Source: Clostridia bacterium (GTDB lineage: Bacteria > Bacillota > Clostridia > Oscillospirales > Acutalibacteraceae). From it: a stretch of 63,266 nt of DNA. The notes under the pieces were generated by a model. That model searched no databases and was not told the DNA's origin. It worked only from the letters and a program-made list of their open reading frames with translations. The stretch covers positions 1 through 63,266 of the forward strand of contig JAFQRF010000038.1 in the NCBI GenBank assembly GCA_017410195.1. The letters are read 5' to 3'. Both the position numbers and the translations under genes were made by a program. Shown piece after piece: positions 36,086 through 58,998 of this stretch (the first letter of the stretch is position 1; each line of letters starts with the position of its first letter).

Positions 36086-36087
36086 AA

Positions 36088-37389: not shown

Positions 37390-39714
37390 TTATGCAATTG
37401 CGGCGGATTTCGGGTCAAGACGGGTTATGATATCCTGCTGAATTGCAGGCGAAAGATCAAGGAAGTTAACAAACGTGCCGTGAATTCTCATAATGTAAAC
37501 ACCGCTCGGAGCATACTTTTTGGGGGTTGCAAGAACCTTTCTGAGAATTTCGGCGGTTGTAACGTTAACATAAAGATAGAAGGGAGAAACGCCTTCCTTC
37601 ATCGGATTGAAGAACAAGGGATTGATAACCTTATCTCTGAATTCAACACCCTTGCCTTCATCGGTTTCGGATGTGAAATACTTCGGGTCAACGCCGAGGT
37701 GCGATGCGTAGCCGCCGTTCATCTTTTCAAAAGGCATCTGCATATTTGAAAGCATGCGGAAGCCGAGTCCGTTTTCAGCACTGCCGTAAAGAGGGTCAAC
37801 ACCGTAGCCTAGCATATCTCTTGACCTTCTGCCGTCGGGAGTTGCACCTACCCAATAACCGTAAAGAAGATGGGTTGAGGGCGAGCTGAAATCGGGTCTG
37901 AACGAGTTGCCGAGATAATTCTTTGTTGAGCCAACAATATCAGCAACCATTGACGCAATTTCGCCGGCCTCCTTATCGACCTTTTCGATGTTATTACCGA
38001 ATTTGTCAGCAGAAAGAAGGAAGTCTCTCAAATCTTCGTAGCCGATGAAATCTGCCTTGATTGCATCAACAAGTTTATCTGCATCCTGCGGTCTTTCCGC
38101 AAGGAGCTTATCTATAGCGGAAAAGCTGTCGGCAATAACGGATACACCGTGAATAAGGCATCCGCTGCCGTTATATTTTGTTCCCTGAGCATTGATGTCA
38201 CGGGCATCTATGCCGTTTTCCAATCCGCCCATAAGGCATGAAAGGAAAGGTACACGTTGAGTTGAAAGAGCGGCAGAAGCTCCGTTTGCAGCTTCGCCCA
38301 TTGCTGCAACAAACTTCTTGACATTCTTCCAGAATTCTTCTCTGACATTTTCAAGTTTACATGCTTCAACGTCAACAAGTTTTTCACCTGTTATTGCGGA
38401 AACACCGCCCGTGAGAGTCATTTCGAGTATCTTCGGAAGATTGAGCCAGCTGTTGGTAGTGTTACCGTTATCCTTACCCATAATCAGCGGTTCCTGACAG
38501 CCTGCAATCGAAATATCCGCAAGGTCACAGTCATCAACGCCCTTTGACGAAAGCACGCTGTAAAGAGAATCATCATTGAAGAACGATGGAGTAAGCACAC
38601 CGGGAGTAAAGAGGAATCTTCCCATTTCTTCGTAGAGCTTTGCAGGAGTATTCTTATGAAGCTTTACGGAAAGAATAGGCTGGGGAAGATTCATATCATA
38701 ATATGCATCCATAAGAGCGTAAGTTGTGTCGTTCGTAAGGTCATTGCCGCAAAGGTCGCGTCCGCTGACGATGATATTCTGCGAAATCGCCCAGCTTCTG
38801 TCGGCAACATTGAAGAATACGAGGAAATGCTTGAGAAGTGCGGCGGTTGTTTCACGGTCAAGACCGTTTCTGTAAGGCTCGAAAATTCTGTCAGCATTAC
38901 CGACTGAAAATGCAAAGGGGTTCGGAGTCTGCTCAAGGCACATAATCTGCCACATAATAATGAACGCCTGAATTGCTTCATAAAGGTTTTCCGCACCGTT
39001 TTCGGGTACCTTGCGAAGCGTTTTTTCCATTATTTCAAGCTGCGCTTTTCTTTCGTCTGAAGCACCGTTCATCTTTTCCTTTGCGAGATCTGCATAACGG
39101 TTTGCAAGGATTGATGCGCATTCGAGAGCGATAGCAAAAGCCTTATAGCCGTTGCCTTCCTTTCCCTCGGTCTTTTTAATCATTTCTTTTGTGCCGTGCT
39201 TGATTGCATAACGCATATCGGGAATAAGATGACCCGTAACCTGCTCAAAGAAAAAGATAACCTCTTTTGTATAGCACTCTGCTTTACCGTAAACCTCACC
39301 GAGCTTTACGGCATATTCCGTCTTTGCGAATTCAGCTCTCGCCTTTTCTATTCTTTCATCGGTTATTTCATCATTGGGTTCAATGTCAGAGAAAACAGCG
39401 GCAGGGTCACAGTAACCGCTGAATTCCTCAACCTTGAATGAAGGGTTGATGAGCGCATAACTTCTTGCAAATGCATCATCCTGAGTACCCGCAAAAAGCT
39501 GATAATCGCTCAGAAAAATCGGCATGGTGCTGACTATATCACGAAGAATGAGAGCTTTTTTGACTTCTTCATTTTCTCCCTCATACTTCTTTGCAAGCTC
39601 AAGCTCTTTTTCTTTTGCAAGGAACCAGCCGTCAAGGCGCATTCCCGCTCTTTTTTCAGCAAAAAGAGATTTTGCCATTTCAGTTATTTTTTGACTGTTG
39701 AGAATAGTGTTCAT
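37390..39714 (-). CDS. Glycyl radical enzyme of unassigned specificity (lyase/dehydratase type)
   Basis: A 774-residue glycyl radical enzyme. The thiyl cysteine and base are in SIAGCQEPLIMG (C406, E408), the C-E pair typical of dehydratases and C-X lyases and not the C-C pair of pyruvate formate-lyase. The radical glycine is G746 in YIMRIHGTFVNFLDLSP, a variant of the usual RVxGYSAxF with Thr-Phe after Gly. The N-terminal PFL domain spans about 15-620 with FAGTQDD near 75. Start at ATG 39714 behind AAGGAG. The cognate activase is directly upstream, a sugar kinase and phosphomannose isomerase downstream, pointing to a carbohydrate-derived substrate. None of the choline, glycerol, propanediol or hydroxyproline pathway partner genes are nearby. 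Confidence 0.88.
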   Translation of the reverse strand: MNTILNSQKITEMAKSLFAEKRAGMRLDGWFLAKEKELELAKKYEGENEEVKKALILRDIVSTMPIFLSDYQLFAGTQDDAFARSYALINPSFKVEEFSGYCDPAAVFSDIEPNDEITDERIEKARAEFAKTEYAVKLGEVYGKAECYTKEVIFFFEQVTGHLIPDMRYAIKHGTKEMIKKTEGKEGNGYKAFAIALECASILANRYADLAKEKMNGASDERKAQLEIMEKTLRKVPENGAENLYEAIQAFIIMWQIMCLEQTPNPFAFSVGNADRIFEPYRNGLDRETTAALLKHFLVFFNVADRSWAISQNIIVSGRDLCGNDLTNDTTYALMDAYYDMNLPQPILSVKLHKNTPAKLYEEMGRFLFTPGVLTPSFFNDDSLYSVLSSKGVDDCDLADISIAGCQEPLIMGKDNGNTTNSWLNLPKILEMTLTGGVSAITGEKLVDVEACKLENVREEFWKNVKKFVAAMGEAANGASAALSTQRVPFLSCLMGGLENGIDARDINAQGTKYNGSGCLIHGVSVIADSFSAIDKLLAERPQDADKLVDAIKADFIGYEDLRDFLLSADKFGNNIEKVDKEAGEIASMVADIVGSTKNYLGNSFRPDFSSPSTHLLYGYWVGATPDGRRSRDMLGYGVDPLYGSAENGLGFRMLSNMQMPFEKMNGGYASHLGVDPKYFTSETDEGKGVEFRDKVINPLFFNPMKEGVSPFYLYVNVTTAEILRKVLATPKKYAPSGVYIMRIHGTFVNFLDLSPAIQQDIITRLDPKSAAIA

Positions 39715-39727
39715 AATTGTCTTCTCC

Positions 39728-40432
39728 TTATGTAACAACGGTTTTTAATCCGAAATTTTCAAATGTATCTCTGAATTTTTTTATTACTTCGGGACTGATA
39801 AATCCGTTTTCGATTTCATATTTTCCTTGCCATTTATCTTTGCCGTATTCGTGATAAGCAAGAAATTCAAAAACCGCATTGGAAGTATCGAATCCTTTAA
39901 AATAATCCGCAAAGCCCCGAGGATCATTATTTACGCCATTTATAACGGGAATTCTTATATGTATCTGACGCCCGATCAAAAAGAAATATTCAAGATTATC
40001 TTTTACGCTCTTATTTGATGCACCGACCCATTTTTTATGTTCGGACTCATCATAATGCTTCATATCTACAATAAGATAATCGACATATTCAGCAACGCTT
40101 CTCAGCGATTCGAATGAGCCGTTTGTTTCGATTGCCGTGTGGATTCCGTTTTCTTTGAGAAGCTTTAAAAGCTCAAGTAATTCCTCTGCCTGAACGCAGA
40201 CCTCTCCGCCCGTGAAGGTTACTCCTCCTCCGTCAAAAAACATCATCCTGCTGCGCATTATTTCATCGAAAATTTCTTTAACGTCATATTCCTTTGCGTT
40301 GGGATTTTCACGAGGAATACTGTCTGCATTCGAACACCATTTGCAGGCAAAATTGCAGCCCTGAAGATGATAAACAAGGCGGTTTCCCGGTCCGTCCTGC
40401 GAATAATTGAAACCTTTTTGCAGTATCTTCAA
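39728..40432 (-). CDS. Glycyl radical enzyme activating enzyme, short PflA-like form
   Basis: A 234-residue radical SAM activase that installs the glycyl radical. The cluster motif is QGCNFACKWCSNADS (CX3CX2C) near residue 28, with GGGVTFTGGEVCVQ near 70 and AIETNGSF near 100. It lacks the two-cluster ferredoxin insert found in most activases of dehydratase-type enzymes and resembles PflA in size. It starts with TTG at 40432, six bases from GGGAGG. The gap to the enzyme gene is 13 bases. Confidence 0.9.
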   Translation of the reverse strand: MKILQKGFNYSQDGPGNRLVYHLQGCNFACKWCSNADSIPRENPNAKEYDVKEIFDEIMRSRMMFFDGGGVTFTGGEVCVQAEELLELLKLLKENGIHTAIETNGSFESLRSVAEYVDYLIVDMKHYDESEHKKWVGASNKSVKDNLEYFFLIGRQIHIRIPVINGVNNDPRGFADYFKGFDTSNAVFEFLAYHEYGKDKWQGKYEIENGFISPEVIKKFRDTFENFGLKTVVT

Positions 40433-41285: not shown

Positions 41286-42179
41286 GTGGTTACCATAAAA
41301 AACAAATTAAGAATTATTTCGGCGGTGATACTCGCAATCAGCTCGGCAGCGACGGTTCTTTCCGCATGCGGTGAAGACACATCCGAACTTCCCGTCGAAA
41401 CTGTTATAGGTTCACAGGGTGAAATACTCGGAGTTTCGGTTTATACGGAAGAAAACAATTCCGAAACACAAACCCTTCTTTACGAAATCACAACAAATAA
41501 ATCCGAAATCAAAGATGATAACAAGGAACCAAAAAATGAGAATGATAACATAAATGCAACTGTTGTTAACGATTCTTCGGATTCATCCGAAATCCGTAAG
41601 ATGACGGCGATAAACAATTCGTCGGGAATAACCTTAGTTTCAAGCCAAAGCTCCGAAAGCACTTCGAGAGTCCGTGTAACATTTCCGCCTGAAACCACTC
41701 AGAAAACAACCCGTGTTGCCGCAACATTCGGAAACGGCAGCGAAAACGAAACGAAGCCTGCAACTGTTCCGTACCAACCTGACAACACACCGAAAACCAC
41801 AAAAAAAACATATTCAGAATCAACCGTAAAACAGACCCAAGCGGAAACAACTGCCGCAAAAAAGCCTGCATCAAATGAAATAATCAAAGAAGAATCAAAG
41901 GGCATTAACATTGTTTTCAAAAGCGAATCTGTTGAAAAAAATAACACTGCATCAATAATGATCCAAGGTACTCCCGGCAAAAAATACAGCATTGATTTTT
42001 ACGTCACCGCTTCGGACATAGCTGATTATTCCGCTCTTGCAGATCAGACCGCAGACGAAAACGGCTTTGTAACATGGACATTCAACGTGCCGACAAGCTG
42101 TGAATCGGGTAACAGAAAAATCGTTATCAGAGAATCGGGTTCGGATAATTATGTTCAGACATCAATAAACATTAAATAA
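41286..42179 (+). CDS. Ser/Thr-rich lipoprotein, function unknown
   Basis: About 297 residues: a lipoprotein signal (KNKLRIISAVILAISSAATV, then LSAC), a long low-complexity Ser/Thr/Asn/Glu spacer (about 30-195) that could cross the cell wall, and a C-terminal 95-residue beta-rich domain (NIVFKSESVEKNNTASIMI onwards) resembling an Ig-like or accessory-binding fold. The start is ambiguous: the GTG at 41286 lies inside the best ribosome site (GAGGTGG), whereas the ATA at 41295 is correctly spaced. It starts directly after the birA stop. Function not recognised. Confidence 0.75.
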   Translation: MVTIKNKLRIISAVILAISSAATVLSACGEDTSELPVETVIGSQGEILGVSVYTEENNSETQTLLYEITTNKSEIKDDNKEPKNENDNINATVVNDSSDSSEIRKMTAINNSSGITLVSSQSSESTSRVRVTFPPETTQKTTRVAATFGNGSENETKPATVPYQPDNTPKTTKKTYSESTVKQTQAETTAAKKPASNEIIKEESKGINIVFKSESVEKNNTASIMIQGTPGKKYSIDFYVTASDIADYSALADQTADENGFVTWTFNVPTSCESGNRKIVIRESGSDNYVQTSINIK

Positions 42180-42191
42180 GGAGAAGTGAAA

Positions 42192-44291
42192 ATGCAAAGA
42201 AAAGGATTTTACAAAAGCGAAAAATACCCTCAGAGAATTTGCGATTATTTCACCGTTAACAACGGTCTGCTTTCAAACAAAGCAAATTGCCTTGCAGGCG
42301 GCAGCGACGGAACGGTTTATATCGGAACTGACGGCGGTCTTAACTACACAAAGGCTGACGGCTCTCTCGGTTCATTCAAGTGTGATGCCGTAAAAACCGC
42401 ATACACCGCCAAAGACGGCACCGTTTATTTTGCAACGGCAAACAAGGTTTACACCGCATCCGAAGGTAAAATCGCAGAGCTTCAGAGCTTTGACGCTGAG
42501 CTTTATGAATTCAGCGGAATTGATGAAATATATCTTCTTGCCGAAAACGCTCTTTATAAGCTTGAAAACGGCATATTCGAAAGATTTTTCCATAATGAAG
42601 CCGCCGCAACAAGCCTTGCATGTAATAACGACAAAATCACCGCTTCAAATAACAGAACTCTCAATATCGTCAACGGAAAGCGCAAACATTGGATGAGTAT
42701 TTTCCCTGAGCATTCAACAATGCCCGATTTCAAAATTAATTGCATCGCCTTTGACGAAGGTCTCGGATTCCTCTGGCTCGGCACAGACAAAGGCGCATAT
42801 ATCTTTGACTGTAAAAACAACTGGTTCGGACACAAGGAAATCAATGCTCTTCCCGAAGAAGAGATTTATAAAATTCGTTTTGCGAATGACGGCAGAGTTA
42901 TTCTTTCATCCGAGGCAGGTCTTATCATCGTCAACAACGGTTCAAGAAAATATCTTCCTGCAACCCGCTGGGCAATGGAAAAGGATGTCAACGATGCCGT
43001 TGCAATCGGAGATTCAATCTGGACAGCAACAAATTCGGGTGTAACAAAAATTACCGAAAAAGAAATGACCCTCAGAGAAAAAGCAGATTATTGCTTCAAT
43101 CTTGTTGAAGAAAAATATGTCCGCACTCTCGGTTATGTAACAGGTCTCGGCGGCATCAAAAACTGCGATGCAAACACCGGAAAGCCCAACATTACGGACA
43201 ATGACGGTCTTTGGACTCAGATTTACGTCGGCTCACTCGCATACGCATATGCGGTCACAAAGGACGAAAAAATCCTCGAAGCTGCAAGACGTTCAATGAA
43301 AGCAATGGGTTATCTCGCAAAAGTTACCGGAGTTAAGGGTTTCACTGCAAGAGCGGTGCGATTTGAAGGTGAACCCGGATACGGTACGGTTGTAAAACGT
43401 GACGGTCAGGAATGGCACGAAGCACCCAACGGCGAATGCGAATGGCTCGGTGAAACCTCAAGTGACGAAATGACGGGTCACTTCTTCGGTTTCTCACTTT
43501 ATTACGATTTCTGTGCAAACGACGAAGAGAAGGAATACATCAAGGAAGTTATCTGCGATATAGTTGACCATATTCTCGAAAACAATTACAGACTCTGCGA
43601 CATTGACGGTCTGCCGACAACATGGGCAAACTGGGATCCCGAGCAGCTCAACAGAAACAACATGTGGCTTTGGGAAAAATGTATCAATTCTCTTGAAATG
43701 CTCACCTTCCTCAATGTTGCATATCACGTTTCGGGCGATGAAAAATACAGGAAAGAATTCCTTCGCCTTGCAATTGACGAGCATTACCTTCTCAATGCTG
43801 CTCAGCACAAGAAGGATGACGGTCATACCTGCCACATAGATGATAATCTCGGCTTCCTCTGCACCGCAACAATTCTTCGCATAGAGAAAGACCCTGCAAT
43901 CAGAAAATATCTTCTCATGGGCATGCGACATCATTGGGAATACGAAAGACCTGAACACTCATTGCTCTATAATATCATTTATACCGCATTCACGGATGAT
44001 GTTACGGGTCTTGACAGCGCAATCAAGACACTCTATGAATATCCTCTTGATTTTGTCAACAGACCTCTTTTCAATTCGTCAAGAAAAGGTCTTGTCTATG
44101 ACACCGAGCAGGAAAAATGGGGCGAAGCTCCTCAGCTCAAAGAGGCTCTTGACATTGATGCAAGAAATGTTCATAACTATGACACCAACCCGTTCCGTGC
44201 GGACGAAGGCCACGGCAGAAGCGCATGCTCGCCCACACCGTTCCTTCTCCCCTACTGGCTCGGAAGATATTACGGCATAATTGAAGAATAA
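42192..44291 (+). CDS. Beta-propeller plus alpha/alpha-toroid protein, cytoplasmic, function unknown
   Basis: A 699-residue protein of two halves. Residues about 10-295 hold five or more regulator-propeller-type repeats (DGTVYIGTDGGLNY, LGFLWLGTDKGAYIF, NDGRVILSSEAGLIIV, GDSIWTATNSGVTKI). Residues about 300-699 are helical and resemble (alpha/alpha)6 barrel carbohydrate enzymes, with conserved-looking acid residues in NITDNDGLWTQ, CEWLGETSSDEMTGHFFG and TWANWDPEQLNRNNMW. No signal peptide is present, so it acts inside the cell. Start ATG 42192 is eight bases after GGAG; the earlier GTG touches it. I do not recognise the family as a whole. Confidence 0.7.
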   Translation: MQRKGFYKSEKYPQRICDYFTVNNGLLSNKANCLAGGSDGTVYIGTDGGLNYTKADGSLGSFKCDAVKTAYTAKDGTVYFATANKVYTASEGKIAELQSFDAELYEFSGIDEIYLLAENALYKLENGIFERFFHNEAAATSLACNNDKITASNNRTLNIVNGKRKHWMSIFPEHSTMPDFKINCIAFDEGLGFLWLGTDKGAYIFDCKNNWFGHKEINALPEEEIYKIRFANDGRVILSSEAGLIIVNNGSRKYLPATRWAMEKDVNDAVAIGDSIWTATNSGVTKITEKEMTLREKADYCFNLVEEKYVRTLGYVTGLGGIKNCDANTGKPNITDNDGLWTQIYVGSLAYAYAVTKDEKILEAARRSMKAMGYLAKVTGVKGFTARAVRFEGEPGYGTVVKRDGQEWHEAPNGECEWLGETSSDEMTGHFFGFSLYYDFCANDEEKEYIKEVICDIVDHILENNYRLCDIDGLPTTWANWDPEQLNRNNMWLWEKCINSLEMLTFLNVAYHVSGDEKYRKEFLRLAIDEHYLLNAAQHKKDDGHTCHIDDNLGFLCTATILRIEKDPAIRKYLLMGMRHHWEYERPEHSLLYNIIYTAFTDDVTGLDSAIKTLYEYPLDFVNRPLFNSSRKGLVYDTEQEKWGEAPQLKEALDIDARNVHNYDTNPFRADEGHGRSACSPTPFLLPYWLGRYYGIIEE

Positions 44292-49078: not shown

Positions 49079-51742
49079 ATGGGAGTTTTCATGCGAATTA
49101 TCAGCCTTATTCTCACCTTCTTTTCATTGGTCGGTTCTCTTTTTAATCCGATTGATGTTTACGGAGAGATTGAACATGAATTTTCAAACAGCTCAAAAGC
49201 CTCTTTTTCAGAGCTTTACTATGAAATTGACGAAAAATCCAACAACACCGAAACATGGCGTCAGGGCATGATTTCGGGCAACGGAATGCAAGGAGTAATC
49301 ACAAGCGGTTCACCTTACAGCGATACGCTGATTTATCAAAACATGCATTTTATTATGCCCAATAAGAATATCCGTTACTGCCCCGACACTTCCGATGAGC
49401 TTGAATCGGTAAAGCAAAACATAACCGAGGGCAAGGATATCGTTGACAACGCAAGCTACGATGATGTTTACTCATTTCACCCGGGTGCATCACTCCGAAT
49501 AAAGCAAAACAAGCAATGGAATATCGGCTATGCAAGATATACAGACTATGAAACAGCACAGGTCGGCGTAAAATACACCGATATAAGCGGTACGTGGAAA
49601 AGAACAACATTTACATCGAAGGCTGACGGTGTAACAATAACCGAAATCGGTTCATCCTCAAACGGAAGAAAGGTTGATATTACACTTTCGATTGACGATA
49701 TTTCCGCATTTGCAAATTACGGCAACGGCAGCGAGTCAGATCTCAAATACAAAAAGCTCGTCGGTAATAATTGCGAATACATAGGCTTTGTTGCACACTA
49801 TCCCGATTATGAAAACAGTGAGCTGAAAAACGGCGGCTATGCAACGGTTATTTACGTCATTACCGAGGGCGGCGAAAAGAAGCTGACCGACGGTAAGATG
49901 GTTAAGGATGAGCAGTATTGCGGCGAAGGTAATCCTCAGATAAAAATCGAAAATGCCGATAATGTTTACCTTATCGCCGTTTCAGACAGAACACATAACA
50001 TGGGCGCATATGCGGATTTTGACGCTGCAGATAGCTATACCCTTGTTGATTCACTTGTTAAAACAACAAAATCCGTTGCCGATAAATATACATTAAACGG
50101 CAGCTTTGATTATGGTTCGGCACTCAAAGCGCATACGGATATTTTTACTCCGCAGTATAACGCAGTAACATTTACTCTCGGAAACACCGACAGTAAAAAA
50201 TCCAATGAGCAGCTCGTGCTTGACCAATATATGAAAAGCGATATAAACTCCGACCTTGCAGAAAGAGCCTATTATTCGGGAAGATATGCTTATCTTTGCA
50301 GCGCAGGCTACGCAACACCCCGACTTTACGGAATGTGGGTCGGCGAATGGACACCCGGCTGGGGAAGCAAATATACGATGGATGCAAACGTAAATCTGCA
50401 GACATCCTCAATGAATACAAGTAACATGGAAAGCACATATATGGGATATGCAAGCTTTATTCTCCGTCAGGCACCCGATTGGGAAGAAAACGCTCTTGCA
50501 ACTCACGGTTTTACCGATGCTCTTCAAGCACCCGTCCATGCAGACGGCGACAAAGCCGTTTTAACCGAAACGTGCTATCCTTATCCTTTCCGATATTGGA
50601 ATGCAGGTACAAGCTGGATGCTGCAGCCGCTTTACGAAACCCTTATGTGTTACGGAGATATAAAAATTCCTCTTAACAGCGAATTTGATTTAAACAAGCT
50701 GAAGTCTGTTCTTTCGATAAATGAAACAGACCTGACAGATGCTGAAATTGAGGCAATTGAAAATAAGGGTTATCTTGATTTGAGAAGTGAAATTCTTCTT
50801 CCCATGCTCACCAAATCCGCAAACTTCTGGGCGCAGCTCATGACCCCCGAATATTATACCGACTCAGAAGGCAAGCTGCACTACAAAAAAGGCAAAACCG
50901 AGCTTTACGAAGGTGAAACATACACAATTCTTCCGAGCTATTCTCCCGAAAACAACCCCTCGAATTATCCCAGCCCCTCTGCAGCAAACACGGCTATCGA
51001 CATTGCCGCATGCAGAAACAATCTTGAAATGCTCATTAATGTTATTGAAAGCATTGAACCCGGTGCAGATACAAGCAAATGGGAATATCTTATGAGCAAG
51101 CTTCCGAAATATATGTATGATGAAACAGACGCACTAAAGGAATGGGCAACATCTGACTTTGACGAAAACAATCTTCACCGTCATCTCAGCCATCTTTATT
51201 GCGTATGGCCTCTTTTTGAAACTCAGGATGATCCCGAGCTTGCCGCCGCTTGTATTCAGGCAATTGCAAACAGAGCGAGTGAAAATGAAGCAAGCCATGC
51301 ACTCGTTCACAGAGCTCTCATCTCTGCAAGACTCAAGGATTCGGCAAGCGTTACCGATGCGCTTTTAAACCTTATGAACCATTGGATTTATTACGATTCG
51401 CTTATGACAAACCACGATTATGACCGCAGCAGCTGCTATTGCACGGACTTTGCAATAGGCTATCTCGGCATCATCAATGAAAGTCTGCTTTATTCAAACA
51501 CGGGTGTGATTGAAATTCTTCCCGCATTGCCCGAATCAGGCTTCGAAACCGGAAAAATAACGGGACTCAGAGCAAGGTCAAGAGCAACGGTTGACGAAAT
51601 AAGCTGGAATATTAACGAAGAAACGGCAAAAGTTACGATAACATCGGATATAGACCAGACGATAACAGTTTCATGCGGCCTTTCGGATAAGACCGAAAAA
51701 GTAACAATTAAAGGCGGTGAAACCGTTACGGTTGAATTCTGA
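49079..51742 (+). CDS. Secreted glycoside hydrolase, GH95 (alpha-L-fucosidase) like
   Basis: An 887-residue protein with a signal peptide (FMRIISLILTFFSLVGSLF, residues 4-22). Residues about 45-290 resemble the GH95 N-terminal super-sandwich (MISGNGMQGVITSG, QNMHFIMPN). The (alpha/alpha)6 region has DANVNLQ (the N-x-N pair), LPSYSPENNPSNY (general-acid Glu region), HRHLSHLYCVWPLF, and IEILPALPESGFETG near the end. Family GH95 removes fucose or galactose from host glycans. Several family residues vary (CTDFAIG where IDANFG is usual), so specificity is uncertain. TGGAG is eight bases before the ATG; an upstream GTG lacks a site. Confidence 0.83.
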   Translation: MGVFMRIISLILTFFSLVGSLFNPIDVYGEIEHEFSNSSKASFSELYYEIDEKSNNTETWRQGMISGNGMQGVITSGSPYSDTLIYQNMHFIMPNKNIRYCPDTSDELESVKQNITEGKDIVDNASYDDVYSFHPGASLRIKQNKQWNIGYARYTDYETAQVGVKYTDISGTWKRTTFTSKADGVTITEIGSSSNGRKVDITLSIDDISAFANYGNGSESDLKYKKLVGNNCEYIGFVAHYPDYENSELKNGGYATVIYVITEGGEKKLTDGKMVKDEQYCGEGNPQIKIENADNVYLIAVSDRTHNMGAYADFDAADSYTLVDSLVKTTKSVADKYTLNGSFDYGSALKAHTDIFTPQYNAVTFTLGNTDSKKSNEQLVLDQYMKSDINSDLAERAYYSGRYAYLCSAGYATPRLYGMWVGEWTPGWGSKYTMDANVNLQTSSMNTSNMESTYMGYASFILRQAPDWEENALATHGFTDALQAPVHADGDKAVLTETCYPYPFRYWNAGTSWMLQPLYETLMCYGDIKIPLNSEFDLNKLKSVLSINETDLTDAEIEAIENKGYLDLRSEILLPMLTKSANFWAQLMTPEYYTDSEGKLHYKKGKTELYEGETYTILPSYSPENNPSNYPSPSAANTAIDIAACRNNLEMLINVIESIEPGADTSKWEYLMSKLPKYMYDETDALKEWATSDFDENNLHRHLSHLYCVWPLFETQDDPELAAACIQAIANRASENEASHALVHRALISARLKDSASVTDALLNLMNHWIYYDSLMTNHDYDRSSCYCTDFAIGYLGIINESLLYSNTGVIEILPALPESGFETGKITGLRARSRATVDEISWNINEETAKVTITSDIDQTITVSCGLSDKTEKVTIKGGETVTVEF

Positions 51743-51787
51743 TTACTTTTAACATCGTAAAAATCTATGCTTAGTTGCCGAATATGA

Positions 51788-51816
51788 TTGAAAACTTTGC
51801 ACAATATTGTTATAAT
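51788..51816 (+). promoter_or_regulatory. Promoter for the CooC-dehydratase operon
   Basis: TTGAAA (51788-51793) and TATAAT (51811-51816), 17-base spacer, 31 bases before the CooC-like start codon. Confidence 0.78.
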
Positions 51817-51847
51817 ATATATAATATTCACCTGGGAGTGACTGATA

Positions 51848-52615
51848 ATGAAAGATAATGCAACGATAATTGCCCTTTCGGGCAAAGGCGGAGTGGGTAA
51901 AACCTCAATTTCCGCTGCAATAGTCAAGCTGCTTGTGCAGGCTTATCCCGACAAAAAAATACTCGCTATCGATGCTGACCCTGCGGTCGGTCTGTCAACA
52001 GCATTGGGTATTGATGTAAAAATGACTATCGACGATATCCGCAAAGAAATCGTTGAGACCGTTGAAGACGGTCAGACAAAAGCAGCTATCGAGCTTCTCG
52101 GCGATGCAAGATACAAGATTTTTGATGCTCTCGTTGAAACAGACGGCTTTGCATTCATCGCAGTCGGCAGACCCGAAAGTGCAGGCTGTTACTGCAAAAT
52201 CAACACCTATCTCAAGGAAGTAATCAGCATCCTTTCAAATGAATTTGATTATGTTGTTATTGACGGCGAGGCAGGCATTGAACAAATTAACCGCCGCGTT
52301 ATGGAAAAGGTTTCCCACCTTCTTCTTATCACCGATGCAAGCAAAAAGGGAACACATGTTATCTCAACAATCAAGAACGTTGCCGATGAACTTGTGATGT
52401 ATAAAAAAATCGGCGCAATCGTCAACAGAATTCCCGACGAAAGCGTTATTGAGCATATCAACACAAACGGAATTCCCGTTCTTTCGTATATTCCGACGGA
52501 TTCAAACCTTGCGATATACGATATCGAAGGAAAAAATATAACAAAGCTGCCCGATGATTCGAATGTTGTTGAGGGAGCCAAAAAAGCTCTTATTGAAATG
52601 GAGATTTTGAAGTGA
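51848..52615 (+). CDS. CooC-type nickel-insertion ATPase
   Basis: A 255-residue SIMIBI-class ATPase of the MinD/CooC family. It has the deviant P-loop SGKGGVGKTS (11-20), AIDADPAVGLSTALG (40-54) and, diagnostically, a CXC pair in SAGCYCKINT (C114, C116), which in CooC binds nickel at the dimer interface. CooC proteins load nickel into carbon monoxide dehydrogenase or acetyl-CoA synthase. No CO dehydrogenase is in the window; the operon's last gene resembles part of acetyl-CoA synthase, a likely client. First gene of a six-gene operon; its end overlaps the next start by four bases. Confidence 0.86.
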   Translation: MKDNATIIALSGKGGVGKTSISAAIVKLLVQAYPDKKILAIDADPAVGLSTALGIDVKMTIDDIRKEIVETVEDGQTKAAIELLGDARYKIFDALVETDGFAFIAVGRPESAGCYCKINTYLKEVISILSNEFDYVVIDGEAGIEQINRRVMEKVSHLLLITDASKKGTHVISTIKNVADELVMYKKIGAIVNRIPDESVIEHINTNGIPVLSYIPTDSNLAIYDIEGKNITKLPDDSNVVEGAKKALIEMEILK

Positions 52616-53817
52616 GAGATTTAAAACACCTTTATGAATTTGAAAATCTGCTGCAGGAAGCAAACAACGCTCTTGTTCGTCAGGCAAAGGCTGACGGCGG
52701 AATAGCACTCGGTTACACATGCTATCATATCCCCGAAGTGCTTCTCAATTGCGGCAACTGCTTTTCGGTCAGACTCCGCGCACCGAGAACAGGCTCGATG
52801 GATATCGCAACCTACTATATGAGCAATTTCCTCTGCGGCTACTCAAAGGCGATTCTTGAGCGTGCGATTGAAGGCGGATACAGCTTTCTTGACGCACTTC
52901 TCGCAAGCGAAACCTGCTCCGAAATGAACAGAGCAGCCGAGCATTTTGAACTGCTCAACCTTGTTGAAAACGATAAATTCTTTCTGACATTCCTCGATAT
53001 GCCGTTCAAGATTGCAGACCATACGGTAAAGCACTATGTCACTCAGACAAGGAACAAAATTCTCAATAAAATGTCAGAGGTTTACGGCGTTGACACTTCT
53101 GATGCCGCTCTTCTCAAAGCGGTTGAAGAACACAACGAAGTCTGCCGTATCATGACCGAAATCGGCAACTACCGCAAGGAATATAACCCGAGAATAACGG
53201 GTTATGAATATCACATTCTCAGCCTTATTACATATTGCTGCCCCAAGGCTCTCATTCTTCCGATGCTTCGCGAAACTGCTGAGGAACTCAAAACAAGAGA
53301 ACCCGATGCAAAAAAGAATTTCAGAGCAAAAATCGTTGTTGTCGGCTCGGAAATGGACGATCCTGAATTCACTTCTCTTATTGAAGACAGCGGCGCACTT
53401 GTTGTTGCTGACAGATATTGCTTCGGCACAATGCCAGGCAGAGAAGAAATCAAAATCAATCCCGATGAAGATGTTCTGACACAGATTTGTCTGCATTATC
53501 TCAGAACAAGCCAGTGTCCGCGTTATATGAGCCACGAAAAAGTTCAGGAACGCAGAGATTATGTAAAACGCCTTGTTGACGAATATCACGCAGACGGAGT
53601 TATGTATGAACAGCTTAAATTCTGCGAATATTGGGGCTACGAAAGAGCGCTGGCATCTTATGTTATGAGTAACGATTACGGTGTACCCACAGCGGCGGTT
53701 GACAGACAGTACACCGCTTCCGCTTCAGGTCAGCTGCGTACCCGTGTTCAGGCTTTTGTTGAAAGCCTTGAAATCAAAAAAATCCAGAGAGAAAGGCAGG
53801 CGAAGGAAAATGGCTGA
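52612..53817 (+). CDS. 2-hydroxyacyl-CoA dehydratase / BcrB-HgdB family subunit (first)
   Basis: A 401-residue protein of the HgdB/BcrB/double-cubane-cluster protein family. Cysteines likely to hold the iron-sulfur cluster include C37, C47, C50, C75 and C102 (GYTCYHIPEVLLNCGNC, FLCGYSK, SETCSEMN) and later DRYCFG, SQCPRYM and YEQLKFCEYWG. The C-terminal GQLRTRVQAFVE matches the family ending. These subunits receive an electron from an ATP-driven activase. It starts with GTG behind GGAG, overlapping the CooC-like gene by four bases. Confidence 0.85.
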   Translation: MRDLKHLYEFENLLQEANNALVRQAKADGGIALGYTCYHIPEVLLNCGNCFSVRLRAPRTGSMDIATYYMSNFLCGYSKAILERAIEGGYSFLDALLASETCSEMNRAAEHFELLNLVENDKFFLTFLDMPFKIADHTVKHYVTQTRNKILNKMSEVYGVDTSDAALLKAVEEHNEVCRIMTEIGNYRKEYNPRITGYEYHILSLITYCCPKALILPMLRETAEELKTREPDAKKNFRAKIVVVGSEMDDPEFTSLIEDSGALVVADRYCFGTMPGREEIKINPDEDVLTQICLHYLRTSQCPRYMSHEKVQERRDYVKRLVDEYHADGVMYEQLKFCEYWGYERALASYVMSNDYGVPTAAVDRQYTASASGQLRTRVQAFVESLEIKKIQRERQAKENG

Positions 53818-55342
53818 TCTCGGAAAGCTTTATTCTGACGACCGCAAGGCGGTTCTTAAACACAGAGAATGGCGCGGTTTCAAAGACACAATGTATGACT
53901 ATTACCGCTGGCTTGTCACATGGAAAGACATGATTGTTATGGTACTCAAGGCACCGATATCAACGGTCAGAGGTCTGTGGAAATACCGCTGGATGGCATC
54001 CTATCTTTCAACACCCTCGTTCATTGACAGACACACCGCAGGATTGAGAGGCACTCACCTGCGCATAGTTCACCTTCATTTCAATATGATTGTCAAGCAT
54101 GCAACGGGTCTTATACATACATCCTTTGTTGCAGACGAAAAAATCAACCCCAAAAATAAACTTACAAAGAAGATTGTTCTGACCGATGAGATTATCCCGA
54201 ACGAGATTTTTTCGGGATTCCCGAATCTCACGGTTATTCCCCTGCAGACAATCCCCATTTTCCTCACATCGATGGTTGACCAACAGATAACTCCGCCTTA
54301 TCTTGAGGTGACAGAAAGCTTCGGCGTGCCTGCCGATGTTTGTCCCCTTCCCAGTGCGGAAGCCGGTGTTGCAATTGATGACGATTATCCCAAAATGGGT
54401 TGCTGTATGGTTGCAACAAATATGCCCTGCGACGGCTCTGTTATGAACTCAACTTTCCTTGACAGACGTCTAAATCTCCCCGTTCACCTGTTCAACATTC
54501 CGCTTCGCTACAACGACGAGGATGTTCAGGAATATGCGGTTGAAGAAGTCAAAGAACTCATTAAATTCATTGAAAAACAAACCGGCGAAAAATTTGACTG
54601 GGATGTTTTCTTTGAAGCTCTCAGAAATTCAAATAAACAGCTTGAATATGAACTCGAAAAATGGGATATCAACAAGACGAAATATCCTCAGATGACGGGT
54701 GCTGCATTCTGGCTTTACAGAATTTATTATTTTAATCTCTCGGGCGGTGTTGATAAACGTTTCCTTAAAGTTGACAAAAAAGTCAACAAGCTCATGATGA
54801 AGGGCTACGAGAAAAAAGAACCCGTCTCAAAAGAAATGCGCCACCGCGCAGTTGTATGGAGCTGCCCTGCAAACTATTACACAAGCTTTGCAAACTGGCT
54901 TGAAAACTGCTGGGGTATGAACGTTGTTATGGATATGGAAACGATGATTTCCTATATCAAATACGACACAGAGAATAAAGAGCAGGCTCTTAAAGATGTC
55001 GCAAAAACATATCAGCGTTCAATCATGCGCAAGCATACAAAGGGCGGATACAGAAACGTTGTGGACGAACTCTGGAGAATCGTTGAGGAATATGATGCCG
55101 ACACGGTTATTATGTATGACCAGATTTCATGCAAAGGAATGGACGGTCTTGCAGGCATCTTTGATGACCAGGCAAGAGAAAGAAATGTCAATTTCATCTG
55201 GGTCAAGCAGGATCTGATGGATCCCAGAACAATCTCAAGACGAGATATGCGTGAGCAGGTCAATAAATATATGCAGACCGTTCTTCAGGAGGAGCCTCTT
55301 GACCCCTCACTTGTTGACTTTGAAGACGATCTGGCTTGGTAA
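53810..55342 (+). CDS. 2-hydroxyacyl-CoA dehydratase family subunit (second)
   Basis: A 510-residue second subunit. A basic, aromatic N-terminal 100 residues precedes the family domain, with PLPSAEAGVAIDDDYPKMG, CCMVATNMPCDGSVM (about 195-215), a central helical region, WSCPANYYTSFANWLEN near 355 and MYDQISCKGMDG near 440. The pair with the preceding gene suggests a heterodimer as in HgdA-HgdB, although it is longer than HgdA. Start ATG 53810 overlaps the previous stop (ATGGCTGA); a longer open frame to 53681 is inside the previous gene. Confidence 0.82.
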   Translation: MADLGKLYSDDRKAVLKHREWRGFKDTMYDYYRWLVTWKDMIVMVLKAPISTVRGLWKYRWMASYLSTPSFIDRHTAGLRGTHLRIVHLHFNMIVKHATGLIHTSFVADEKINPKNKLTKKIVLTDEIIPNEIFSGFPNLTVIPLQTIPIFLTSMVDQQITPPYLEVTESFGVPADVCPLPSAEAGVAIDDDYPKMGCCMVATNMPCDGSVMNSTFLDRRLNLPVHLFNIPLRYNDEDVQEYAVEEVKELIKFIEKQTGEKFDWDVFFEALRNSNKQLEYELEKWDINKTKYPQMTGAAFWLYRIYYFNLSGGVDKRFLKVDKKVNKLMMKGYEKKEPVSKEMRHRAVVWSCPANYYTSFANWLENCWGMNVVMDMETMISYIKYDTENKEQALKDVAKTYQRSIMRKHTKGGYRNVVDELWRIVEEYDADTVIMYDQISCKGMDGLAGIFDDQARERNVNFIWVKQDLMDPRTISRRDMREQVNKYMQTVLQEEPLDPSLVDFEDDLAW

Positions 55343-55357
55343 AGGAGATAGATTACT

Positions 55358-56152
55358 ATGAAATATTTCGGCGGATGTGACGTCGGCTCAACATATACAA
55401 AATGTGTTATTCTTGACGAAAACGGAAAAATGGTTGCAAACGTCACAAACAGAAGTAAAATCAATCCCGTTGCAAGTGCGGAAATCGCACTCAATGATGC
55501 GGTTGCACAGGTCAGCGGACTCAATTCGGCAGAAGAGCTTACATACCTTATCGGAACAGGTTACGGAAGAAACAAAGTTCCTTTTGCGGATGAAAACATT
55601 TCGGAAATCAGCTGTCACGCAATGGGCGTTCATGTCACAAACCCCGAGGTCAAGGCAATCATTGATATCGGCGGCCAGGACGTCAAAGGCATATCTATCG
55701 ACACCGACGGTACAGTTAAGAATTTCGCAATGAACGATAAATGCGCTGCGGGTACGGGCAGATTTTATGAAGCAATGGCGAATGCATTTGAAATGACTCT
55801 CCCCGAATTCTCAAAGCTTTCACTCGAAGCTAAAAACACAATTCCCATCACAGCGCAATGCACCGTTTTTGCCGAGAGTGAAGTTATTTCGCTCGTCGGT
55901 GAAGGCAAACCCATGGATGAAATAGCAGCGGGAATTCAGCTTGCCGTTGCAAAAAGATGCTTTGTTATGGCTAAAAAAGCAGGAGCAACAGACAGTATAA
56001 CTCTCACCGGCGGCTGCGCAAAGAATGACGGTCTTAAAAAGGCAATTGAAAAAGTTCTGAAAATCAAGGTTGTGGAGCTTTCGACCGACCCTCAGCTTAT
56101 GGGCGCCCTCGGTGCGGCTGAGTATGCACGTCAGAAAGGATTGGCAAAGTAA
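55358..56152 (+). CDS. Acyl-CoA dehydratase activase (BadF/BadG/BcrA/BcrD, HgdC type)
   Basis: A 264-residue ASKHA-fold ATPase that couples ATP hydrolysis to injection of a low-potential electron into the dehydratase-type subunits. It shows GCDVGSTYTKCVI (ATP loop), GTGYGRNKVPFA, IDIGGQDVKGISID, and the two cluster cysteines NDKCAAGTGRF and ITAQCTVFAESEVISL that bridge a [4Fe-4S] cluster between two activase chains. Length equals HgdC. AAAGGAG lies before the ATG, 15 bases after the second subunit. Confidence 0.93.
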   Translation: MKYFGGCDVGSTYTKCVILDENGKMVANVTNRSKINPVASAEIALNDAVAQVSGLNSAEELTYLIGTGYGRNKVPFADENISEISCHAMGVHVTNPEVKAIIDIGGQDVKGISIDTDGTVKNFAMNDKCAAGTGRFYEAMANAFEMTLPEFSKLSLEAKNTIPITAQCTVFAESEVISLVGEGKPMDEIAAGIQLAVAKRCFVMAKKAGATDSITLTGGCAKNDGLKKAIEKVLKIKVVELSTDPQLMGALGAAEYARQKGLAK

Positions 56153-56153
56153 A

Positions 56154-56309
56154 ATGGAAGTGATTTTTATAATTCTCGGCGTTCTCCTTGCGCTTTTCGT
56201 TATTACTTTTGCGATTTATTTTTTCAATCTCGATATGAAGCTTATACGCAAGGTATACGACCTTCTCGGCAAGCACTATGACACAATGAAAAGGGATAAA
56301 AAGCTGTAA
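56154..56309 (+). CDS. 51-residue single-span membrane peptide in the dehydratase operon
   Basis: MEVIFIILGVLLALFVITFA and a few more hydrophobic residues form one membrane helix, followed by a basic cytoplasmic tail (LIRKVYDLLGKHYDTMKRDKKL). It starts one base after the activase stop, and its own stop overlaps the next start (TAATG), so the position leaves little doubt that it is translated although the ribosome site (AAAGGA, 13 bases away) is poor. It may anchor the complex to the membrane. No homology recognised. Confidence 0.65.
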   Translation: MEVIFIILGVLLALFVITFAIYFFNLDMKLIRKVYDLLGKHYDTMKRDKKL

Positions 56310-56992
56310 TGAAATTTTTTGATTCATTGATTTGTGATACCGAAAAGCTTATATCGTCGTTTCCCCGAAAATCATTCCGCAATGACATACCATGGAGCGA
56401 TGCAGGTCAGCTTCAGGTTATTATGAGGCGTGATACTGCCTTTGAGCTTGAAGGTGTGGGATTTAATCTTGTTACTTCGAGAGAGATTCCGGATGAAATC
56501 ATTCTAATCGGAGATGACCTCGGAGAAATCAAAGAAAACCGCAAGTTCGCACGCATTGCCGTCGTTCAGATTGAAGACAGCGGTGACGAACAAAAAGCAT
56601 ATAATCTTATCAAAAAGATCGATTATGTTAAATATCATTGCTTCCCCGACGGATACATGATGCGAAGCACATCCCGTTCCCACAAAGAGGCGGTGCGTGT
56701 TTCGAAAAAAGCAATAAAAAGAAAAGCAAATTTTCAAAATATCGGGTCTTTACTCATTAAGAAATATAAAGAAATCCCTGCCGTAAAAGGCGTTAAGCTT
56801 ATTTTTATAACTGTACCCGAAGCGGATTATCCCGAAGCAGAAAGAATCGCAGAAAAAAACTATGAAATTACAGAAACCTTAAATCACATTATGAACAGCG
56901 TAACCTTCGATTGCAATACATGCAGCCTCAAAACAGTCTGCGACGAGGTTGAAGGGATGAAAGAGCTTCACTTCAACAAATCTAAAATGTAA
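56309..56992 (+). CDS. Small acetyl-CoA synthase beta (CdhC)-like protein with Cys cluster
   Basis: A 227-residue protein. Residues about 60-170 resemble the domain of acetyl-CoA synthase / CODH beta that precedes the A-cluster: a PDEIILIGDDL strand, the KIDYVKYHCFPDGYMM region and RVSKKAIKRKANFQNIGSLL, which parallels the RISKxAxxKGxxLKHIGxxL pattern of CdhC. Then C202, C205 and C211 (DCNTCSLKTVC) stand where the A-cluster cysteines begin, but the spacing is shorter and the fourth ligand is absent. It is far smaller than a full synthase. As last gene behind a CooC-like ATPase it is a candidate metal-accepting partner. Confidence 0.68.
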   Translation: MKFFDSLICDTEKLISSFPRKSFRNDIPWSDAGQLQVIMRRDTAFELEGVGFNLVTSREIPDEIILIGDDLGEIKENRKFARIAVVQIEDSGDEQKAYNLIKKIDYVKYHCFPDGYMMRSTSRSHKEAVRVSKKAIKRKANFQNIGSLLIKKYKEIPAVKGVKLIFITVPEADYPEAERIAEKNYEITETLNHIMNSVTFDCNTCSLKTVCDEVEGMKELHFNKSKM

Positions 56993-57003
56993 TTTCAGAC
57001 AAG

Positions 57004-57052
57004 AAACCACTCCCCGCAGTGCTGAATCGGCACCGTTGGAAGTGGTTTTTTA
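57004..57052 (+). terminator. Terminator of the CooC-dehydratase operon
   Basis: AAACCACT (57004-57011) pairs with AGTGGTTT (57041-57048), enclosing a smaller GCACCG-containing hairpin, followed by a T run. It lies 12 bases after the last stop codon. Confidence 0.75.
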
Positions 57053-57066
57053 TTATTTAAATTCAA

Positions 57067-57450
57067 ATCAAATCAACTTTTGTAACTTTTATCAGCTCTT
57101 CACGTAAAACAATCTTCCATTCAATATCATCTGCATATTCAAACCTCAAAGCTGATAAAGCTATGTGTTGTTCTAAATTTTGTCACGCTGAAACAAAAAT
57201 TTCTGTAGGTCCGTCAGCACCGCCGATAATTGCAATAGAACCAGCATAGTAGCTTGCCCTCGGCTCAAATTGATTGCAGGGGTTGCGTTTAGGTTATTCA
57301 TTATCAAGACAATCCCGCACTTAAAAAATTCCCCCCCCCGATATTTCAGGCTCCAATGTGTATGTCATCACCGTGTGAAATGTCGTAAATTCATATTCTT
57401 CATACTGATAGCTTTGATTTCTTGAATGACTTTATATCCACAGCTTTATA
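57067..57450 (-). pseudogene. Decayed GADGPT-motif gene (sodium-pump decarboxylase beta-like fragment)
   Basis: The 530-base stretch between the operon terminator and the transporter gene has no intact gene, but the minus strand codes GSIAIIGGADGPTEIFVSA, a motif of sodium-translocating decarboxylase beta subunits and of related small membrane proteins. The frame upstream (NLNATPAINLSRGQA) is shifted by one base, and a TGA interrupts the frame before NLEQHIALSALRFEYADD and a final stop at 57067. A run of nine C lies at 57331-57339, in a further decayed segment. These are signs of a multiply frameshifted remnant; boundaries are approximate. Confidence 0.5.
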
Positions 57451-57519
57451 CCTTATTATCAGATTGTATTTTTAAAATTATATCATTTTTATCTCTGAAA
57501 AATCAACATATTTAATCTC

Positions 57520-57548
57520 TTGTGCTTTTTTTCCTCCTGTGATATAAT
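57520..57548 (+). promoter_or_regulatory. Promoter for the transporter-sulfatase pair
   Basis: TTGTGC (57520-57525) and TATAAT (57543-57548), 17-base spacer, 31 bases before the start at 57580. Confidence 0.7.
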
Positions 57549-57579
57549 TTTCTTGATATAAATCATGGAGAGTGATTTT

Positions 57580-58998
57580 ATGGAGAAAGTATTAAATGAA
57601 AAAAAACAAAAAGAGCTTGAAAGACTTAACAGACAGCTGGCAAAACCAAAGGGCCGAGGCTATTTAGCCTATTTTATGTTTGTTATTGCAGTCATATATA
57701 TGGCTGATGAAATCGCATCGCAAATAGGTATTCAGATGCAGACAGTTATTGCATCGCAGATTTTCGCTCCGGTTTTCGGTGCAGATGTTGCGGTTGCAAG
57801 AATGTCCGCCTTTGGTACGGTTGCAACTGTCGGCTCAGTTGTTGCGTTTATTTACAAACCGCTTTCAGACAAATTCGGCAGAAGAATATTTCTTATACTC
57901 AATACTCTCGGAATGGGACTCGGTCTGCTGTTTGTATCAATCGCAACCAATATTCCCGTTTATCTTATCGGTGCGTTTATAATACAGTTCTTCATTCCTC
58001 ACGATATGCAGGCTGTCTATATTCAGGAATGCGCTCCGCCGCAGCACCGTGCAAAAATCTATTCGGTAATCAAATCTGTTGCAACTCTCGCAATTTTCCT
58101 CATCCCCTATCTCCGTCAGACTTTCATCACGGAAACCGACCTCTCGGGTTGGAGATTTGTTTACTTAATACCTGCAATTATCGCTCTCGGTGCAGGAATC
58201 TTTGCATTCTTTACGGTGCGCGAAAGCGACGTTTTTATCAAAAACCGCATTAAGCAGCTTACCGCTCCCGAAACGGAAACAATCCTCAAATCAAAAGCAG
58301 ACGGCTCTCAGGGCGGATTTGCAAACGCTCTGATATATTGTTTCAAAAATAAGCAAATGCTTTTCGTTATGATTGCAGGCGGATTTCTGATGTTCGGTAT
58401 GCTGATTACGCAATATTACGAAACCATTATGAACTACGGCTTTATGCAGGAATATCTTGCACAGGGAATGGATTTTGAAACCGCAAACGCAATGGCCGTT
58501 ACTGCCGTTTCAAATGCGCTTATGCTTTTCAGCCTCGGTTCTGCATCATTTCAGCTTATAACGGGGTTTATTGCGGATAAATTCGGCAGAAAATCTACTA
58601 TTATCGTTATGACTGTATTAATGCTTACAACATATCTGCTTTTCTATTTTGGCTCAAGAAACAGCTGGAATGAATATCTTGTCGGCTTCTTCTGCGGTGC
58701 AGCAGTAGGCAGTTATTGGGCAACAGGAGATATGATAACACTTATGTGTTCCGAATCAGCTCCAACGGGAATCCGTGTTTCAATCGCAACAGTAAGACCG
58801 ATTATAACGGGTGTTATTTATGCAATAGGAATGCTCATTAACATGGTTTTATCAAATATTCTCGGCGACGAAGCAATCGGCATGATATGTTTCTGCACGG
58901 TCGTTCCGGGTATGATTATCGGTATCATCATTCTTATGCTTAAGGCAAAAGAAACCCGTGGTGTAAATCTTGAGGAAATCGGTGAAGGCAATGAATAA
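57580..58998 (+). CDS. Major facilitator superfamily transporter
   Basis: A 472-residue permease with twelve predicted membrane segments and a charged N-terminal tail. The loop 2-3 signature is KPLSDKFGRRIFL near 95, repeated in the second half as GFIADKFGRKSTII near 330; an inner-loop ECAPPQHRAKIYS is near 155. It resembles sugar/organic-anion porters. The ATG 57580 is nine bases from GGAG; an earlier ATG at 57565 overlaps it. The sulfatase gene starts inside its last codons, so a sulfated substrate or its anion is the likely cargo. Confidence 0.88.
   Translation: MEKVLNEKKQKELERLNRQLAKPKGRGYLAYFMFVIAVIYMADEIASQIGIQMQTVIASQIFAPVFGADVAVARMSAFGTVATVGSVVAFIYKPLSDKFGRRIFLILNTLGMGLGLLFVSIATNIPVYLIGAFIIQFFIPHDMQAVYIQECAPPQHRAKIYSVIKSVATLAIFLIPYLRQTFITETDLSGWRFVYLIPAIIALGAGIFAFFTVRESDVFIKNRIKQLTAPETETILKSKADGSQGGFANALIYCFKNKQMLFVMIAGGFLMFGMLITQYYETIMNYGFMQEYLAQGMDFETANAMAVTAVSNALMLFSLGSASFQLITGFIADKFGRKSTIIVMTVLMLTTYLLFYFGSRNSWNEYLVGFFCGAAVGSYWATGDMITLMCSESAPTGIRVSIATVRPIITGVIYAIGMLINMVLSNILGDEAIGMICFCTVVPGMIIGIIILMLKAKETRGVNLEEIGEGNE

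Follow-up and report, generated by a model that had tools for sequence, protein, structure and literature searches.

Few nickel enzymes are known, and to our knowledge none of them is fed by ATP-driven activase or double-cubane machinery. The closest described systems with such machinery are the class I benzoyl-CoA reductase (BCR-I) BzdNO(PQ) (PDB 8s02; PMC11971306), the (R)-2-hydroxyisocaproyl-CoA dehydratase HadBC (PDB 3o3m), a 2-hydroxyacyl-CoA dehydratase (HAD), and the double-cubane cluster protein with its reductase (DCCP/DCCP-R; PDB 6eno and 7yyl). As described in PMC11971306, BCR-I pairs two unequal HGD-D subunits, of which BzdN holds a double cubane on Cys36, Cys73, Cys100, Cys263, Cys293 and Cys327; in HAD, the corresponding subunit carries a [4Fe-5S] cluster. 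On the nickel side, the closest systems are acetyl-CoA synthase (ACS; PDB 1oao and 3git), the CooC and CooT proteins of carbon monoxide dehydrogenase (CODH; PMC6006190) and the activation complex of methyl-coenzyme M reductase (MCR; PMC12176620). Here, a 63,266-nucleotide contig of a Clostridia bacterium within the Acutalibacteraceae (JAFQRF010000038.1, assembly GCA_017410195.1; the whole stretch is called the window) was analyzed, which carries a six-gene operon (g1 to g6, 51848..56992, forward strand). The cluster occurs in scattered anaerobes, many of them from animal guts, and appears to tie an ATP-powered BCR-type electron pump to a nickel-insertion protein and a cut-down piece of ACS. 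We tentatively read it as a low-potential reductase that belongs to the BCR-I/HAD superfamily, is driven by ATP and has both an ACS-derived subunit (g6) and its own nickel-insertion ATPase (g1). The electron path and the superfamily assignment are probable, nickel dependence is evenly balanced and g6 is a doubtful nickel client. The fold classes, ligand cysteines, operon structure and gene co-occurrence are shown by sequence.

The six open reading frames (ORFs) are tightly spaced, with overlaps of 4 bases (g1/g2), 8 bases (g2/g3) and 1 base (g5/g6) and gaps of 15 bases (g3/g4) and 1 base (g4/g5). A first-pass annotation of this DNA, made by a model from the letters alone, had described six packed genes behind one promoter and before one terminator, and the ORF coordinates agree with its overlaps and gaps and add the g4/g5 gap, which its list lacked. 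The promoter was found by consensus match as a near-consensus extended -10 site (TTGAAA-17-TATAAT, 51788..51816, forward strand, 11 out of 12 consensus matches) 31 bases 5' of the g1 start, and ranks best among 23 promoter-like sites in 51000-57800, where shuffled sequences gave 13.9 +/- 4.6 sites. The terminator is a strong Rho-independent-like hairpin with a T-run (57001..57051, forward strand), seen in the RNA fold of 56990-57060 (-25.5 kcal/mol, z -5.5, none out of 200 shuffles as good); the signal scan, whose loop limit is 8, did not list it. The six-gene operon is thus confirmed.

Two peptide patterns, searched in 84,980 species genomes, identified at least 65 related loci. All six genes were found by BLAST in 53 out of 65 loci, or in 56 if g5-like peptides seen by eye between g4 and g6 in L088, L110 and L114 are included; six loci are truncated where their contig stops (L063, L064, L072, L094, L098, and L113). 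In 24 of the loci, which are closely related to the window, g6 is 55-79% identical to the window's copy, and these loci are hence not independent. The order g1-g2-g3-g4-g5-g6 is present in 38 of the 53 loci and g2-g3-g4-g5-CooT-g1-g6 in nine, with reshuffled orders in L083 (g1-g4-g5-g6-g2-g3) and L115 (g1-g4-g6-g2-g3-g5) and four variants with extra or split genes. That the genes stay together even where they are reordered speaks for a working unit. Within 391 genomes sampled from the class, g3 (E up to 1e-60) was present in seven and the small g6 in the same seven; five further g6 matches lie in frames of 537-719 amino acids (E 6e-7 or weaker). The co-conservation that the first-pass annotation had asked for as a check across genomes is therefore present.

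Within a sample of 99 relatives, g3 was found in 13 genomes and g6 in 11; the contig of one genome (G042) stops inside g1, before g6. The distribution is patchy, with the cluster in 11 out of 45 genus genomes searched and in none of the 54 others of this sample. A g6 profile matched in 47 out of 299 genomes sampled from the phylum, and the matches listed are long frames (416-814 amino acids, full or partial ACS by length), which were not counted as g6, except for the window's own and one in G640. The titles of the 65 loci are mostly metagenome-assembled genomes of Clostridia, Clostridiales, Oscillospiraceae, Lachnospiraceae, Eubacterium or Roseburia, many from ruminant or deer gut, with one of the Acholeplasmatales (L110), one plain "bacterium" (L079) and the named isolates Clostridium algidicarnis and Eubacterium sp. 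14-2.

Conserved residues were counted in one best copy per locus, excluding copies shorter than 75% of the query (57 rows for g1, 54 for g2, 57 for g3, 60 for g4, 60 for g5, 65 for g6, and 14 for CooT), with the window's row added to each of the six gene alignments and the query to the CooT rows. The g2 gene (52612..53817, forward strand, 401 amino acids; PF06050, E 2.5e-90) encodes a BzdN-like HGD-D subunit with a predicted [8Fe-9S] double cubane. Its cysteines 37, 75, 102, 270, 302, and 338 match all six BzdN ligands one-to-one and are invariant in 55 out of 55 rows; this ligand set, together with an ATP-driven reductase partner, is shared with DCCP and sets g2 apart from the [4Fe-5S]-bearing subunit of HAD. 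The g3 gene (53810..55342, forward strand, 510 amino acids; PF06050, E 6.1e-48), for which the ATG at 53810 was taken as the start (the ORF list begins the frame at a GTG at 53681), encodes a BzdO/HadB-like subunit. It is predicted to fold as BzdO and keeps three cysteines (178, 207, and 441) of the catalytic [4Fe-4S] cluster (BzdO Cys95, Cys128, and Cys380). The HadB-like fold of one HAD subunit is likewise present. It differs from BzdO by an N-terminal extension of ~80 residues; in the loop that corresponds to the catalytic His131 of BzdO it reads Ser210, in an alignment whose register is uncertain by one residue. Two other conserved cysteines of g3 (199 and 367) were considered as a nickel site and set aside: predicted secondary structure places Cys199 at the start of a strand and Cys367 at the end of a helix before a strand, so that they probably lie away from the cubane.

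Neither subunit reaches the cut-off of a characterized NCBIfam subfamily; the membership in a characterized 2-hydroxyacyl-CoA dehydratase subfamily that the first-pass annotation had named as counting against its reading is thus not seen. The top match of both is double_cubane (NF040772; 139.2 bits for g2 and 61.0 for g3, cut-off 350), but DCCP is a homodimer, whereas here the two subunits are unlike each other and the distal cubane ligands are missing from g3. The BCR-I equivalogs (bzdN 92 bits for g2, cut-off 453.8; benz_CoA_red_B 31 bits for g3, cut-off 486.6) and the HadB/HadC equivalogs (84.6 bits for g2, cut-off 700; 28.4 for g3, cut-off 750) stay below threshold as well; overall, the dehydratase and reductase subfamilies listed other than double_cubane score 18 to 92 bits against cut-offs of 421 to 750. 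The reductase part would work like BzdNO and HAD, and its membership in BCR-I, HAD, and DCCP fails on these cut-offs, for BCR-I also on activase number.

As in BzdNO(PQ), the operon contains an ASKHA activase. The g4 gene (55358..56152, forward strand, 264 amino acids; PF01869, E 1.9e-57) encodes an acyl-CoA dehydratase activase of the BcrAD/HgdC type that passes TIGR00241 (215.3 bits, cut-off 125.4). Its Cys129 and Cys168, which we take to be the ligands of the bridging [4Fe-4S] cluster, are invariant in 61 out of 61 rows. The operon has a single activase gene, against two in BCR-I, and each related cluster likewise has one (split in L081); only the distant set of L125 has two. The ATP-driven reductase architecture proposed in the first-pass annotation is supported, as is its membrane peptide: g5 (56154..56309, forward strand, 51 amino acids) has one hydrophobic stretch, judged by eye, and conserved residues Y22, N25, D27, M28, K29, and D43 in 61 BLAST-found rows. 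A DUF3829 lipoprotein-like gene (one profiled) lies just 5' of g5 in one clade (L084, L089, L093, L096, L097, L108, and L118), between g4 and g5 wherever g4 is present.

The g1 gene (51848..52615, forward strand, 255 amino acids) encodes a CooC-like P-loop ATPase whose best solved relative is CooC (3kje, E 8e-16, CYC aligned). It has the deviant Walker A motif GKGGVGKTS and a CxC motif, C114-x-C116 (codons 52187..52195, forward strand), which in the 3kje alignment matches the metal ligands Cys112 and Cys114 described for Carboxydothermus hydrogenoformans CooC-1 (PMC6006190). Both cysteines are kept in 58 out of 58 rows, so the assignment of g1 as a CooC with a CxC motif stands. CooT-like genes were found in 14 out of 65 loci (the L071 copy profiled as PF10133, 1e-13), with Cys2 in 15 out of 15 rows, one of which is a duplicate of the query L102; one clade has them between g5 and g1, and L071 and L100 have them elsewhere. 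With CooT, a His-rich gene of 74 amino acids adjoining CooT in L071, and HypA in other relatives, the nickel link is better supported than the first-pass annotation could see. CooC and CooT are known from CODH, but the operon partner here is a reductase of another family and, as that annotation had claimed, no CODH was detected in the window's genome (93.55% complete). Nor were another ACS, a NiFe hydrogenase, LarA or urease detected there, other nickel enzymes not having been searched for; the nickel client of g1, if any, is therefore probably in this operon or new. Among 32 short ACS loci, the CooC gene type gave one weak match (28%), which is not informative.

Directly upstream of its full six-gene copy, L071 carries a second, divergent copy of the set (L071:1-4300), consisting of a g1 homolog cut by the start of the locus, a g6 homolog, the His-rich gene, CooT, and homologs of g2 and g3; a g4 and g5 of its own are not in view.

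The last gene, g6 (56309..56992, forward strand, 227 amino acids), encodes a stand-alone ACS middle-domain (A2) protein by profile and predicted fold. It matches PF03598 (CdhC) with E 4.6e-5 and 23.8 bits, just below the cut-off of 24 bits, and with 24.2 bits in the genome search. Near its C terminus it carries C202-x2-C205-x5-C211-x9-H221 (56912..56971, forward strand), a putative remnant of the A-cluster cubane motif of ACS (C-x2-C-x8-C-x9-C) whose first part lies 34 residues from a conserved Thr (37 in ACS). The C-x2-C-x5-C part is present in 64 out of 65 g6 sequences, and the fourth place, among 67 motif-bearing sequences, is taken by His at +10 in 51, by Cys at +7 in 12, and by neither in four. 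The 32 ACS controls were chosen by the cubane motif and hence are no independent test of it. Unlike ACS, g6 lacks the N-terminal domain, the CGC dinickel site and the rest of the C-terminal domain. From its sequence, g6 is best described as an ACS middle domain that keeps cubane cysteines one to three and mostly has a His at the spacing of the fourth; membership in ACS fails on the dinickel site, and without that site ACS chemistry at g6 is unlikely. The first-pass annotation had taken g6 for a relative of the ACS A-cluster region and had proposed structure prediction as a check. An ACS-like domain is indeed predicted, and a whole A-cluster was rejected, as fold, profile alignment, and the CGC count leave only its cubane half. 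The remainder of that interpretation (ATP-driven reductase, CooC with CxC, relation to ACS, membrane peptide, co-conservation, and no CODH) stands, and none of the three outcomes listed there as refuting it was observed.

The median dN to the window is 0.25 for g6 and 0.02 to 0.05 for g1-g4 (21-24 close loci), with dS of g6 saturated (17 out of 24 not computable) and its dN/dS thus unreliable. In the 24 close loci, the activase g4 (55358-56152) is 93-98% identical to that of the window and g6 (56309-56992) only 55-79%, a spread of rates that is unusual within one operon.

Taken together, the proteins suggest the following mechanism. Reduced ferredoxin would hand one electron to the g4 dimer and its [4Fe-4S] cluster, where, as in the family of g4, ATP binding and hydrolysis would drive it below the potential of ferredoxin into the predicted [8Fe-9S] double cubane of g2 (six ligands by alignment) and on to the g3 cubane (three ligands), at which a small or CoA-bound substrate would be reduced. 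The putative [4Fe-4S] of g6, on its ACS middle domain, may dock on g2/g3 to let electrons out or to gate the substrate. By analogy with its chaperone family, g1, helped in some lineages by CooT or other chaperones, would load nickel into one protein of the set, and g5, perhaps with the N-terminal helices of g3, may anchor the complex at the membrane. Pyruvate:ferredoxin oxidoreductase subunits flank three out of 71 loci (L079, L081, and L124), which is suggestive of a ferredoxin source, although the loci are too few. The activation complex of MCR, as described in PMC12176620, offers a functional analogy in its ATP-dependent electron delivery through several clusters toward a nickel centre; it uses an ABC-type ATPase, Mmp proteins and F430, and as described there has no HGD-D pair.

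Several observations weigh against the favored reading. No nickel ligand set was identified in the operon proteins, the CGC dinickel site is present in none of the 65 g6 sequences as against CGCFE in 32 out of 32 ACS controls, and no acyl-CoA ligase or CoA-transferase is present in the operon, the latter also a difference from HadBC. The two different ATP-binding activase subunits of BCR-I are not found. CooT is not seen in 51 out of 65 loci (some cut by contig ends); the 63-kb window has no CooT match and HypA was not found in its genome, so that CooC alone speaks for nickel there, and the wider ATPase family of CooC (MinD, Mrp, and NifH types) handles Fe-S as well. The linkage also has exceptions: L093 and L097 have only g5-g6, L117 has a lone g6 that has lost its cysteines too, and in G035 an unrelated gene on the opposite strand comes after g2-g5 and the genome has no g6, although the contig ends ~460 bases upstream of g2 and g1 could lie beyond. 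The most specific version of the reading, in which HgdC-type delivery through the double cubane of a BCR-like pair joined to an ACS piece ends at a nickel-iron-sulfur centre and reduces a C1 or other small molecule in gut anaerobes without CODH/ACS, is rather unlikely.

The alternative that survives best, although unlikely, is a nickel-free enzyme in which g2-g3-g4 act on an acyl-CoA like BCR or a dehydratase, g6 aids CoA binding or electron docking, g1 is an Fe-S assembly or remodelling ATPase and the enzyme for CoA activation comes from a gene elsewhere. Among the solved relatives of g2/g3, those whose names refer to a substrate (BzdNO, MbdON, and HadBC) use CoA esters, and the missing dinickel motif of g6 and the many loci without CooT fit such an enzyme. 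So does L125, where CooC, a g6 homolog (PF03598, 53.9 bits), two activases, and two HGD-D proteins lie in a row (L125:7596-13203, reverse strand) near an acyl-CoA dehydrogenase-like gene, as read from the ORF list. However, CooT sits inside the cluster in one clade and at other positions in two further loci, BzdNO was assembled in E. coli from a bzdNO plasmid as described in PMC11971306, no CoA ligase or transferase was recognized (mostly by eye) in the 40 most widespread flank families, and His131 of BzdO is not clearly kept in g3. As a further difference from BzdNO(PQ), no benzoate genes were recognized beside the operon. By its gene content L125 resembles a BCR-I gene set to which CooC and the g6 homolog have been added, and this one locus suggests that CooC and the ACS-domain protein form a module that can be added to BCR-I-like reductases beyond one clade. 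Next to the L125 set lie the dehydrogenase-like ORF and two long proteins for which no Pfam match passes the cut-off, and the same genome has a long ACS-type frame (752 amino acids) elsewhere.

Less probable still, and on the whole quite unlikely, is an activation machine or electron supplier in which g2-g4 give very low-potential electrons, and g1 with CooT or HypA gives nickel, to a partner protein, as MCR activation does for F430; that complex, as described in PMC12176620, is a precedent for ATP-driven nickel reduction. Candidate partners are flavoproteins encoded beside related loci. FAD/Fe-S oxidoreductases like the isoprene reductase IsrA, so labelled by domain make-up and HypA neighbor rather than by alignment to IsrA itself, lie beside nine out of 71 loci (L091, L095, L100, L101, L104, L105, L111, L112, and L120), on the same strand within 116 bases downstream in seven and 401 bases upstream in one. 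HypA is present in seven out of 71 loci (one profiled), each time adjoining the IsrA-like gene. As 73% of 988 IsrA homologs are reported to be near HypA (PMC10134865), the HypA genes fit such a partner and are not independent evidence for nickel in the cluster. Old-yellow-enzyme-like proteins, which are possible partners, neighbor seven out of 71 loci by clustering and eight with L103 included; they are on the same strand within 34 bases in L080, L103, L110, and L121 and at 352 bases in L100, and the remaining three are 1 to 6 kb away or on the opposite strand. Overall, a flavoprotein reductase lies within ~400 bases on the same strand in 13 out of 71 loci and none so close in the other 58 (some cut).

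This proximity raised the standing of the activator alternative slightly and lowered that of the favored reductase reading a little, and it favors a flavoprotein partner in some lineages. The partner cannot be general, since neither kind of flavoprotein was found in the window and a full-length IsrA-like protein is missing from its genome, where the best match is 35% and spans residues 409-897 of 972. An obligate IsrA-like client was rejected on this ground and on the distribution in the 37 genus genomes covered by both searches: a near full-length IsrA-like protein and g6 are both present in two (G005 and G021), the IsrA-like protein alone in 10, g6 alone in seven and neither in 18, so that 17 genomes have one alone. 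The absence of the nickel enzymes sought in the window's genome also counts against an activator. Finally, it is very improbable that g2/g3 are an ordinary characterized 2-hydroxyacyl-CoA dehydratase or double-cubane protein with incidental neighbors, since, although the Pfam families are the same and double_cubane is the top match of both, those scores (139 and 61 bits) and those for the other subfamilies listed fall well short of the cut-offs, g3 lacks the distal DCCP cubane ligands, the six-gene linkage survives rearrangement and g3 and g6 fully co-occur in the class sample.

If the nickel-dependent reading is true, the cluster would be the first HgdC-type pathway to end at a nickel-iron-sulfur centre, a new kind of nickel enzyme, and a client for CooT and CooC in genomes without CODH. 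In PMC6006190, 111 CooT homologs and 85 CooT-bearing proteomes with CODH are counted, which by subtraction leaves perhaps 26 CooT without CODH that the cluster may help to explain. A conserved complex that combines nickel insertion with this ATP-driven machinery in a bacterium where no CODH is detected would mean either one more nickel enzyme or a role for CooC in Fe-S enzymes too, and it would give an ACS domain a job outside acetyl-CoA synthesis, which bears on the history of ACS assembly. No description of the cluster was found among the titles and abstracts listed in open PMC full text, a scope outside which most subscription papers fall.

The commonest flank family outside the set is a methyltransferase (13 out of 71 loci). 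In the window, the operon is preceded by a GH95-type glycosidase and followed by an MFS transporter and a sulfatase. Further upstream, two proteins of 701 and 297 amino acids without a Pfam match at 1e-5 (42186-44291 and 41286-42179, forward strand) lie beside a biotin/lipoate ligase-like gene, and a PFL-like glycyl radical enzyme (37390-39738, reverse strand) lies beside an FGGY-type kinase and a cupin-domain protein (35066-36142 and 36088-37380), which could together form a small sugar or diol degradation cluster.

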